Assembly: GCA_030622125.1 (NCBI GenBank)
Contig: JAUXGM010000113.1
Location: 1-7,043 of the forward strand
From: a bacterium
GTDB taxonomy: Bacteria > AUK180
DNA length: 7,043 nucleotides
Reading direction: 5' to 3'
This document shows, one piece after another, positions 471-3,934 of the stretch (its first letter is position 1; the number at the start of each line of letters is the position of its first letter). The notes under the pieces were generated by a model. That model was given only the letters and a program-made list of their open reading frames with translations, was not told the DNA's origin and made no database searches. Position numbers and translations under genes: made by a program.

Positions 471-1778
471 TTACCTTCTTTTCTGGTGCTCTGGTGCACT
501 ATGATTTGTTTTTTTTCGTAAAAATGTTACCCATTCCTGATGATAGGTATTTGGGAACATATCAAACCCAATAAGTGAGTCAATATAATAATCATTGATA
601 AAAAGTTTCAGATCGGAAAGCAACGCAGGCGGATTACAGGACACATAAACAATATAAGGACTTTTCAGCTTCTTTATGTTATTAAATAGATACGGCTTTG
701 GATTTGTTCGTGGAGGGTCAAGAATAACCAGATCCGGGCGTGCCTTAGCTGCATTTATGTAGGTAAGTGCAGACGCAACACTTTTTTCATAATAACTAAC
801 ATCTTTATGATCTTTGAGTGTTCCTCTTATATCGTTAATTGCATAAGGAGAACTTTCAACCACTGTTATTTTATTGAAATATTTTTGAAGGTATCCCGAA
901 AAAAATCCTATACCGGCATAAAGATCCAGTAATTTTCCACCAATGTCTTTCAATTCAATATAATTTTTTATTGTTTCTGCTATCTTATATGCTATATCAC
1001 CGTTTGCCTGAAAAAAAGATGCCGGATAAAATTTAAATTCCTTTTCACCGATATTCTTGATCAATTTCCTGCCACCAACAACAAAATTAGCCTTTTCTAA
1101 ATCACTTATAACAAAGGATATAACTCCAAGCTGCTTAATTATCTTAGTTACCCTTTTTTTAATATCAGCATTTGCACCATAAATGAAAAAATGAATTCCG
1201 ATGCCGTTATCCCCTTCTACAATCTCCACTTCTTTTAATCTTTTTGAAAGCCGCCCTGATTTTTCTACAATTGCATTGAATCGCTTTATAACCTTATTTA
1301 TTCCATCAGTAACAACGGGGCAATTATTTATCGCAACAAGCTTATTCGACCGCAATTTTGAATAACTTAAAAAACCATCCCTATTTATTTTCAACTTAGT
1401 TCGCAACCGGTATCCAAGTTCTTTTTCAGAGGGAATAAAGGCTGTTTGCTCTATCTTCAAACCTTCTCTTTTTAACATTTCGTTAAGAAGATCATTTTTA
1501 ATTTTTACTTGATTTTTATAAGATATGTCACCGTAAGTACATCCGCCACATTTCCAAAAATGAGGGCAGAATACCCTTCTATCCCGATAAGATGATTTTT
1601 CAACTATCTTTTTGATCTTTGCAAAGGTATAACTGCTTTTCTCATCTTTTTCCTTAACTATAACAAGATCCCCTGGAATTCCATATTCTACAAGCATTTT
1701 TTTTGAAATTTTATCTGTATAACCTATGCCGTAAATGCCGTAAGATGAGTTTTTTATTTTAACTTCGTTCTCTTTCAC
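471..1778 (-). CDS. 23S rRNA (uracil-C5)-methyltransferase, RlmD/TrmA family
   Basis: SAM-dependent enzyme that methylates C5 of a uracil in RNA, in the cytoplasm; rRNA (RlmD-like) is likelier than tRNA because it has both a TRAM domain and an iron-sulfur motif. I chose GTG at 1778, giving 435 aa: it overlaps the sppA TGA as GTGA and places a TRAM domain (about residues 5-60) at the N-terminus. The frame stays open to an ATG at 1865, but that would put 29 unrelated residues inside sppA. 4Fe-4S cysteines are C71, C77, C80 and probably C153. The SAM motif LLDLYAGIGFF is at 283-293, DPPR at 354-357, the nucleophile Cys381 in VSCNP and a probable general base Glu415 in FDMFPNTYHQEW. The family domain ends near residue 420; the last ~15 residues are read from repeat DNA. 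RlmD versus RlmCD specificity cannot be told from sequence. No internal start has a good Shine-Dalgarno, so translation probably depends on coupling. Confidence 0.9.
   Translation of the reverse strand: MKENEVKIKNSSYGIYGIGYTDKISKKMLVEYGIPGDLVIVKEKDEKSSYTFAKIKKIVEKSSYRDRRVFCPHFWKCGGCTYGDISYKNQVKIKNDLLNEMLKREGLKIEQTAFIPSEKELGYRLRTKLKINRDGFLSYSKLRSNKLVAINNCPVVTDGINKVIKRFNAIVEKSGRLSKRLKEVEIVEGDNGIGIHFFIYGANADIKKRVTKIIKQLGVISFVISDLEKANFVVGGRKLIKNIGEKEFKFYPASFFQANGDIAYKIAETIKNYIELKDIGGKLLDLYAGIGFFSGYLQKYFNKITVVESSPYAINDIRGTLKDHKDVSYYEKSVASALTYINAAKARPDLVILDPPRTNPKPYLFNNIKKLKSPYIVYVSCNPPALLSDLKLFINDYYIDSLIGFDMFPNTYHQEWVTFLRKKTNHSAPEHQKRR
482..497. repeat. 8-bp tandem duplication in the methyltransferase 3' end
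   Basis: TCTGGTGC occurs twice head to tail at 482-489 and 490-497. On the coding strand it reads GCACCAGA twice and gives part of the SAPEHQ tail of the methyltransferase. It marks where coding sequence passes into the intergenic repeat mosaic. Confidence 0.6.
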
Positions 1779-2722
1779 ATCATATATAACAGACGAAATT
1801 CTTCCGTAACAGAATTTTTTAATTTTGTTACTCCTTCGCCAATATTTTCCAATAAAAATGACCATTTATGCTTTTTTGGTTCCCTCACGATCTTAACCTT
1901 GATCTTTAACTCTTTTTCAATAAATTTAATACAATCCTGCATATCACCGATCTGATCTGCGAAACCCAGTTTAACCGCTTCATTGCCGAGAATGATCTGT
2001 CCCTGTGCATATTTTTCAATATACTTTTTTACATCACTTTCGGTCTTTAATTCAGGGTGAAGTTTTTTTATCTTTTCGCTCCTTCCTTTAATAACAATAT
2101 TGAGAAATATCTGATGGGTATCATCCACAAGTTTCTGAATATAGTCTCTTTCTTCCTTTGTCATATCCCTTGCCGGATTTCCAATATCTTTATATTTGCC
2201 ACTTTTAAAGGTGTTTACATCCATCTTTAAAAATTTATAAAGTTCCTTCAAGTTGGTCATTTGAATAATAACACCTATTGAAGCGGTCAAAGTAGTATTT
2301 TCTGTAAATATTTCATCCGCTGCCGAGGAAATAAAGTACCCGCCGGATGCACAGAGTCCACCCATTACTACATAGATATTTTTACCCTTTTCTTTGGCAT
2401 GTATAAGTGCTCTGTATATTTCCTCTGTTGAACCAACAGATCCTCCCGGTGAATTTATGTAGAGAATAATTGCTTTGAGCTTATCATTTTTGGCAAATTT
2501 GTTGATATTTTTTACCTTGTTCTCTGATTTCATTATTGCACCGTTAATTTTAATCAGTCCAACATTACCATCAGTTGACAGGGTTTTAAATGAGGAAAAA
2601 CTTTTCCTTGACATCCCTCTACCTAAATTACTCATTGTAATTGAAATAACTACACACATCAAAAGAAAAAAGAGCAGTACTATTCCAAGTATGATCGGAC
2701 CATTGTCTCTCTTCTCGCTCAT
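1775..2722 (-). CDS. sppA: Signal peptide peptidase SppA, short (36K) form, S49 family
   Basis: Membrane-anchored serine protease that degrades cleaved signal peptides and other membrane-bound peptides. The 315-aa length matches the short single-domain type found in Bacillus and many other bacteria, not the tandem-domain E. coli form. A single transmembrane anchor spans about residues 9-30. YINSPGGSV (88-96) is the oxyanion region. The nucleophile is Ser126 in CASGGYF and the general base is Lys178 in KSGKYKDIG; their 52-residue spacing equals the Ser147/Lys199 spacing of B. subtilis SppA. The ATG at 2720-2722 follows a strong AGGAGGT with 6-nt spacing. The stop overlaps the downstream methyltransferase start (GTGA). 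The gene is separated from the upstream carbonic-anhydrase-like gene only by the 251-bp mobile element, so it was probably once tightly coupled to it. Confidence 0.94.
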   Translation of the reverse strand: MSEKRDNGPIILGIVLLFFLLMCVVISITMSNLGRGMSRKSFSSFKTLSTDGNVGLIKINGAIMKSENKVKNINKFAKNDKLKAIILYINSPGGSVGSTEEIYRALIHAKEKGKNIYVVMGGLCASGGYFISSAADEIFTENTTLTASIGVIIQMTNLKELYKFLKMDVNTFKSGKYKDIGNPARDMTKEERDYIQKLVDDTHQIFLNIVIKGRSEKIKKLHPELKTESDVKKYIEKYAQGQIILGNEAVKLGFADQIGDMQDCIKFIEKELKIKVKIVREPKKHKWSFLLENIGEGVTKLKNSVTEEFRLLYMM

Positions 2723-2728
2723 AATATT

Positions 2729-2735
2729 ACCTCCT
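2729..2735 (-). promoter_or_regulatory. sppA ribosome binding site, abutting the mobile element
   Basis: AGGAGGT on the minus strand, 6 nt before the sppA ATG. It overlaps the TAG (2734-2736) that ends the relic transposase frame, forming TAGGAGG, the same stop/Shine-Dalgarno fusion seen at 3928-3934. The left end of the element (2740) lies only four bases upstream, so the insertion left this site intact. Confidence 0.8.
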
Positions 2736-2922
2736 ATTTTTGGGGACGGTGGAGAACTATCGCCACGTATGAATTTTCACCTTTTCCCAAAAAATTATTT
2801 CTTATTATTTTATTTACATAATTTTCAGATTTATTAATGGCTCTGGAAATTTCAGCTCCCGAAAAACCTAAAATAATGTGATAGTAATGATCAGGTAAAT
2901 CTATTCTTGCTTGCCGTGCCAT
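2734..2922 (-). pseudogene. Internally deleted Y1/RAYT-type transposase relic
   Basis: A 62-residue frame. It begins MARQARIDLPDHYYHII, the typical start of IS200-like REP-associated (Y1_Tnp, HUH) transposases, then jumps at about residue 17-18 (near 2871) to GFSGAEISRAINKSENYV, which resembles the C-terminal helix-turn-helix region of the longer members. The whole catalytic middle, including the HUH motif and the nucleophile Tyr, is absent, so it cannot transpose itself. It starts 8 bp after the upstream gene's stop with only a weak GTGAG upstream. Its last codons run through the left inverted repeat and end on a host TAG that overlaps the sppA Shine-Dalgarno. If translated at all, it may matter only as a coupling ORF for sppA. 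Confidence 0.75.
2740..2769 (+). repeat. Left terminal inverted repeat of the element
   Basis: Begins TTGGGGACGG. Over 30 bp it matches the reverse complement of 2961-2990 except at positions 11, 20, 25 and 28 of the repeat. On the minus strand it codes YVAIVLHRPQ, the C-terminus of the transposase relic. Confidence 0.85.
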
Positions 2923-2930
2923 ATTAATAT

Positions 2931-3476
2931 CTACTCACTTTTATCCGTTTTTATTTCAGATAAGTTGCGAAAGTTCTCCTCCGTCCCCAATTTTTGATAA
3001 TGAATTGCGGACTTTAGAAGTTTTTTCTTTTCGTTTATGGTGATTTTTCGGACAATTTTTCCCGGCATACCGACAACCAATGAATCATCAGGTACCACCT
3101 GCCTTTCCAAAACAAGAGCACCGGCTGCAACAACACAATGTTTTCCTATCTTTGCACCGGAAAGAATTATCGCACCCATACCGATAAGTGAACCATCGCC
3201 TATTTTACATCCGTGAAGTATTGCATTGTGTCCAACCGTAACATTATCACCAACAATTAAATTATCTGGCGGATAATCGACATGACAGGTAACATTATCC
3301 TGAATATTTGTATTTTCACCAATCACGATACTCTCTATATCGCCTCGTAAAACAGCGTTGTACCAGATATTTGCACCTTTTTTTAGATGAACATTTCCAA
3401 TGATCTGAGCACCTTCCGCTATAAAGACATTCTTTTCAATTCTCGGACTAATTGATTTGTATTTAATAATAGCCAT
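2931..3476 (-). CDS. Gamma-carbonic-anhydrase-like hexapeptide protein
   Basis: A 181-aa left-handed beta-helix protein of the gamma-CA/YrdA/PaaY group, probably a cytoplasmic trimer with metal at subunit interfaces. Hexapeptide-type repeats (ENVFIAEGAQIIGNV, IVIGENTNIQDNV, LIVGDNVTVGHNAIL, KIGDGSLIGMGAII) run from about residue 14 to 125. The three metal ligands are His65, His83 and His88; the last two keep the 5-residue spacing of archaeal Cam (His117/His122). The N-terminal acidic loop of true Cam is absent, so carbonic anhydrase activity is uncertain; some relatives act as acyltransferases or scaffolds. Its ATG overlaps the preceding TAA by one base (TAATG), with only a weak A-rich upstream sequence. 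The helical tail ends naturally near residue 162; residues 163-181 are encoded by the inserted element. The ancestral protein was probably about 163 aa. Confidence 0.9.
   Translation of the reverse strand: MAIIKYKSISPRIEKNVFIAEGAQIIGNVHLKKGANIWYNAVLRGDIESIVIGENTNIQDNVTCHVDYPPDNLIVGDNVTVGHNAILHGCKIGDGSLIGMGAIILSGAKIGKHCVVAAGALVLERQVVPDDSLVVGMPGKIVRKITINEKKKLLKSAIHYQKLGTEENFRNLSEIKTDKSE
2961..2990 (-). repeat. Right terminal inverted repeat, coding inside the upstream gene
   Basis: Reverse-complement partner of 2740-2769. On the minus strand it is read in frame as LGTEENFRNL, residues 163-172 of the carbonic-anhydrase-like protein, so the element end has become host coding sequence. Confidence 0.85.
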
Positions 3477-3927: not shown

Positions 3928-3934
3928 CCTCCTA
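3928..3934 (-). promoter_or_regulatory. Stop codon fused to Shine-Dalgarno (TAGGAGG)
   Basis: The TAG of the barrel gene (3932-3934) overlaps the AGGAGG that serves the cNMP-domain gene, 5 nt before its ATG. The same arrangement appears at 6789-6795 (TAGGAGC) and, across the mobile element, at 2729-2736. It is a recurring coupling device in this operon. Confidence 0.75.

Follow-up and report, generated by a model that had tools for sequence, protein, structure and literature searches.

The window analysed here, the whole 7,043-nucleotide stretch of contig JAUXGM010000113.1 (assembly GCA_030622125.1) from a bacterium of the AUK180 lineage, carries an operon-like run of minus-strand genes encoding a subtilase, an outer-membrane-type protein, a cyclic-nucleotide-binding protein, a gamma-carbonic anhydrase-like protein, SppA and an RNA methyltransferase. 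Between the gamma-carbonic anhydrase-like gene (2931..3476, minus strand; NF050158, E=7.8e-49, a match under that model's curated cut-off) and sppA, which encodes a signal peptide peptidase (1775..2722, minus strand; Peptidase_S49, PF01343, E=9.6e-39), sits a short element bounded by inverted repeats. The last 19 codons of the enzyme (2934-2990) and its stop lie within the element or at its edge, and the present gene product of 181 residues is inside the range of the relatives' open frames. The enzyme stop is followed after 8 nt by the start of a relic open reading frame, whose own stop overlaps the sppA Shine-Dalgarno sequence AGGAGG (2730..2735, minus strand), just outside the element. Such a closely spaced chain may let ribosomes cross the element and keep sppA translated; translational coupling of sppA through the relic frame is, on this arrangement of reading frames, plausible. 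In the predicted fold of the minus-strand transcript the two ends of the element would pair with one another (z = -4.06 against shuffles), and the Shine-Dalgarno sequence falls outside the stem that they make.

The two arms at 2740-2770 and 2960-2990 are complementary at 27 of 31 positions and form the best 31-bp inverted repeat within the window. Since this exceeds the top repeat in every one of 30 dinucleotide-preserving shuffles of the window (24/31 at best), the inverted repeat is above chance, and the count of 26/30 reported in the first-pass annotation is correct. The limits of the element given there, 2740 and 2990, do not stand. In other copies GGGG opens the conserved end, and the two bases lying beyond it differ (AT, TT, TC, TG, CA), so that the outer TT/AA at 2740 and 2990 are most simply read as flanking sequence that extends the repeat by chance (1 in 16). 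The element is accordingly placed at 2742..2988, a length of 247 bp, on the minus strand, which is that of the transposase relic. Its GGGGACGG...CCGTCCCC ends are common to three full-length elements and to other miniatures of the same genome. The arm adjoining sppA (2742..2770) has the end type that we call E (GGGGACGGTGGAGAACTATCG), and the arm adjoining the carbonic anhydrase gene (2960..2988) has matches in four solo ends at other places in the genome; neither arm is assigned a strand. No target-site duplication is evident at the element, and an Rfam search of the window gave no matches.

Between the arms, and running slightly beyond one of them, lies the relic frame (2734..2922, minus strand, 62 aa, TAG stop). 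TIRYTs are RAYT-like Y1/HUH transposases of the PF01797 family, and against a profile made with 17 full-length members, taken from this genome and related ones, the relic gives two matches only. Residues 1-17 (MARQARIDLPDHYYHII; 2872..2922) correspond to profile positions 1-17, the TIRYT N-terminus, with an i-Evalue of 2.3e-8, and residues 19-42 (2797..2868) correspond to positions 259-282 of 287, the C-terminal helix-turn-helix, with an i-Evalue of 8.4e-5 over a short match; both values come from a search of one sequence that tested a single defined hypothesis, and they should not be read as database E-values. The HUH motif, the catalytic tyrosine and everything else between profile positions 17 and 259 are absent. 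Judged by these two matches, the relic is a TIRYT N-terminus fused in frame to a C-terminal helix-turn-helix with the catalytic core deleted, which bears out the earlier statement that it keeps only the two ends of its family. Searches of Pfam and NCBIfam returned no usable match to the relic, the nearest being a weak HTH_23 hit (E=0.17). A frame that stays open for 62 codons, starts 8 nt after the enzyme stop and ends on the sppA Shine-Dalgarno sequence might be taken for the gene of a small, functional DNA-binding protein maintained by selection; we consider this very improbable, given that only one copy is known, that one fusion in three would be in frame by chance and that the helix-turn-helix match is weak.

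The remainder of the genome supplies the context in which the element can be classified. A PF01797 search returned four transposases above the cut-off. The genes of three of them (280-299 aa; contigs C73, C140 and C141) are flanked by inverted GGGGACGGTGG ends 929, 1042 and 953 bp apart; for the fourth, on C172, no ends were found, the single GGGGACGG there lying inside a neighbouring ORF. Inverted ends of the GGGGACGGTGG type are represented by 37 GGGGACGGWGG sites in the genome, the reversed pattern giving 0 on one strand and 1 on the other. Miniatures, defined by paired close ends (161 bp on C45, 194 bp on C34 and C40, 198 bp on C91), include a 161-bp form in three copies (C45, C182 and C144; 95-100% identity, those on C182 and C144 near-complete) whose ends match the C141 TIRYT, a 194-bp form in three copies (C34, C40 and C50; 84-100%) whose ends match the C140 TIRYT, and the 198-bp form on C91. 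The E-type end of the window element (GGGGACGGWGGAGAACTTTCGC) recurs as four solo copies, on C9, C14, C114 and C169. The search of the source genome proposed in the first-pass annotation thus did recover matching ends, and the reading of the locus as a MITE-like element produced by internal deletion is upheld by them. The full-length transposase with the same ends that was also expected there was found in part: three elements of the same class carry the same kind of ends, but no parent with exact E-type ends occurs in this assembly (192 contigs, 96% complete). The E-type end has no match in 385 other genomes, and no E-type parent was found in viral contigs or, with the relic as query, in plasmids.

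Several arrangements of these ends are recorded here as observations in their own right. Within a few bases after three of the four solo E-type ends (C9, C169 and C114) comes one and the same AATGAGATTG... unit, which resembles the CGTC-type REP palindromes (GTCATTGCGA...GCAATCTCAT). Since Di Nocera et al. (PMC3733652) found no transposase for CGTC REPs, this recurring adjacency is a lead. Two GGGGACGG ends stand in tandem and in the same orientation at C17:97-139 and at C114:1957-2048, 32 and 81 bp apart. At four loci (L029, L030, L211 and L222) full TIRtrons lie directly after the 3' end of an upstream gene and in its orientation, and at the first two the upstream ORF has its end within the element, which parallels the carbonic anhydrase gene of the window.

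TIRtrons, as described by Di Nocera et al. (2013, PMC3733652), consist of a RAYT-like tyrosine transposase, the TIRYT, between long terminal inverted repeats with the motif GGGGWSAS. The window element has such long repeats led by GGGG, here within GGGGACGG, and in the account of that paper, as here, some of the repeats are also found away from the gene. Its tip agrees with the published consensus at 7 of 8 positions, departing from it at the seventh base. Tip and layout agree with those of the three resident TIRtrons, and the inner part of the E-type end (GAGAACTTTCGCAACTT) agrees with none that we found. Unlike the described elements, the window copy encodes no RAYT-like Y1/HUH tyrosine transposase, its core being deleted; with only residues 1-17 and the C-terminal helix-turn-helix left, it is a derivative and not a TIRtron proper. 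At 247 bp it has the size of a TIRtron-derived MITE (under ~300 bp) and likewise lacks an intact transposase. The complete sequence occurs once in the genome, beside the four solo ends, and not in the multiple copies of an amplified MITE; movement of the window element itself is therefore only putative. On this evidence we consider it quite probable (about 85%) that 2742-2988 is a non-autonomous, internally deleted TIRtron, that is, a MITE. This kind of element is already known (Di Nocera et al. 2013), and the window element adds a new member to a class that is known but little studied.

Other RAYT-associated systems resemble the element in part. The survey of Quentin et al. (2018, PMC6006769) places the TIRtron/TIRYT class mostly in subclass 2.1 of TnpA_REP/RAYT, which probably corresponds to the TIRYTs; the full-length relatives in this genome are likewise 280-299 aa long with a C-terminal helix-turn-helix, whereas the window copy is without the catalytic domain. 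REPINs, in the description of Bertels and Rainey (2011, PMC3116915), are also short, non-autonomous elements with inverted ends that are tied to a RAYT-like transposase, but they are built from GTAG-tagged REP palindromes, in contrast to the inverted repeats of ~29 bp that begin with GGGGACGG here, and the coding relic remaining inside is a feature of the window element. The window ends are not GTAG-tagged short palindromes in inverted pairs. With IS200/IS605 elements the class shares the Y1/HUH transposase family and the lack of an evident target duplication. The ends of IS200/IS605 elements are subterminal hairpins, and those of the window element differ in being terminal inverted repeats.

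Comparison with relatives indicates what the junction may have looked like before the element was present. In three of four family members checked (G001, G002 and G004) the gamma-carbonic anhydrase gene adjoins sppA without an element, and in the fourth (G003) another gene lies between the two; a named metagenome contig (L120) has the enzyme directly followed by sppA, with a junction identical to that of G002. An element placed between two operon genes, as proposed from the window sequence, agrees with these neighbourhoods, but the insertion was not clean at the junction. The enzymes of G001, G002, G004 and L120 continue for 12-13 residues beyond a conserved HY dipeptide, after which come the stop and a spacer of ~50 bp to the sppA start. 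Given this longer tail and spacer in the relatives, ~75-80 bp of gene end and spacer were lost or reshaped in the present lineage, either with the insertion or separately. The named-genome scan gave L120 and otherwise mostly Proteobacteria, and no same-genus empty site.

These junctions bear directly on the proposal that a 251-bp segment had inserted precisely into a QKK-TAGGAGG junction with nothing else changed. Its arithmetic holds: excising 2740-2990 gives CAT TAT CAA AAA AAA TAG GAGG, and the TAGGAGG junction does occur elsewhere in the operon, at the boundary of the outer-membrane protein and cyclic-nucleotide-binding protein genes near 3930. The family boundaries are 2742 and 2988, however, and excision there gives CAT TAT CAA AAA TTA AAA ATA GGA GGT..., which has no stop and is in frame with sppA. 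The A/T run at the junction admits several cuts, none of which the sequence by itself singles out. Moreover, a QKK ending leaves 3 residues after the HY-like dipeptide, compared with at least 8 in all 18 homologous enzymes with a readable tail, and the empty-site homologs at the family level have the longer enzyme and the ~50-bp spacer in place of the QKK-TAGGAGG predicted for them. We therefore consider a precise insertion improbable. The relatives were compared at the level of the family and not of the genus, and a lineage-specific shortening of the enzyme before the insertion may also have occurred.

The history that we favour is one in which an element of the TIRtron class reached the carbonic anhydrase gene at its 3' end, most likely by single-strand, HUH-type transposition. 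The TIRtron would have arrived whole and then been gutted, or would already have been gutted when a TIRYT sharing its ends moved it in trans. Deletion of the core in place, so that the miniature itself never moved, approaches an even chance in our estimation; it is favoured by the single copy of the complete 247-bp sequence, by full TIRtrons that occupy comparable sites between genes in this genome, the upstream ORF extending into the end, and by relatives that have full TIRtrons between adjacent co-directional genes, while the three copies each of other miniatures of the class, which indicate that miniatures can spread, and the four solo E-type ends elsewhere argue against it. Deletion elsewhere followed by mobilisation in trans to this site, which we take as a serious possibility at somewhat less than even odds, would be in keeping with the 161-bp and 194-bp miniatures, both in three copies and with ends matching resident TIRYTs, but the window element has no other complete copy, and no parent with E-type ends was found. 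In either sub-case of the favoured history, what survives is the pair of inverted ends together with the opening and closing coding segments of the TIRYT; the catalytic HUH and tyrosine core is gone, and the junction has lost its ~75-80 bp relative to the relatives. Today the element would do no work of its own, and it supplies the last codons of the upstream enzyme.

By itself, the window element is one more dead transposon; the surrounding set, comprising three resident TIRYT elements whose ends are distinct, miniatures in several copies that match them, and sister species that differ at two loci in the presence of a TIRtron, is more useful. The survey of Quentin et al. (2018, PMC6006769) reports no evidence of mobility for this class of transposase, a statement on which the two sister species G001 and G004 bear. 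A TIRtron between dtd and nrdR in G004 has flanks that are contiguous in G001, and a TIRtron of G001, placed between a MarR-type gene and the gene that follows it, has flanks that are contiguous in G004. Because two full TIRtrons differ in presence between these sister species, mobility of the class is supported; the relatives of the window element, within its own genome and in neighbouring ones, suggest a class that really moves. There is no target duplication at either locus. Both unoccupied sites hold bases matching the outer tip beside the upstream stop codon (ACCAATGTCCCT and TCCCCT), which could mean that the tip is partly target or, in the first case (dtd/nrdR), that a remnant stayed after loss. 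The gene order at the dtd/nrdR site differs in the outgroup, so that no polarity can be assigned between insertion and loss. At the unoccupied dtd/nrdR site of G001 (locus L244, near 1700; G001:C53:14468-14879), ACCAATGTCCCT agrees with the outer end of the G004 element at 11 of 12 positions and could be a target or an excision scar.

More generally, we offer as a tentative and rather unlikely scheme that TIRYT elements are mobile both whole and as miniatures, in an HUH-like manner without target duplication, that they target the 3' ends of genes beside a G-run, which is then incorporated into the outer tip, and that they recognise a universal GGGGAC tip together with a family-specific tandem doublet of ~9 bp. 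The sequenced cases in these genomes allow tests of mobility, target choice and end recognition. In many ends the tip is followed immediately by a direct doublet, in most cases of 9-bp period (e.g. GTTGCAAAA GTTGCAAA), a feature of most ends in this genome which does not appear in those portions of the TIRtron paper (PMC3733652) that we could compare. The doublet reaches p<0.02 by per-end shuffles in 12 of 17 end types and is weak in the window's own end (p=0.33). Across 11 elements, similarity of the doublet follows similarity of the catalytic core in a Mantel-type comparison (r=0.37, p=0.006). That the doublet would track the core and not the helix-turn-helix is, with 11 elements, a lead only. 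The idea that the C-terminal helix-turn-helix reads the tandem doublet was dropped (r=0.08, p=0.27 between the similarities of the two, same type of comparison and same 11 elements). Two ends (L105 and L119) have their downstream sequence in common, but in one of the two the first doublet unit is that of a different family (GTTGCAAAA then GTAGAAAAA), which would look like an exchange of ends between families. Past the end of the operon, the window also holds near-identical intergenic low-complexity repeats, at 151-174 and 348-371 (AACCTCAAACCCCAAATTTCAAAT) and at 186-208 and 447-477 (TTTCCTTATTTCCTTATTGCCTT).
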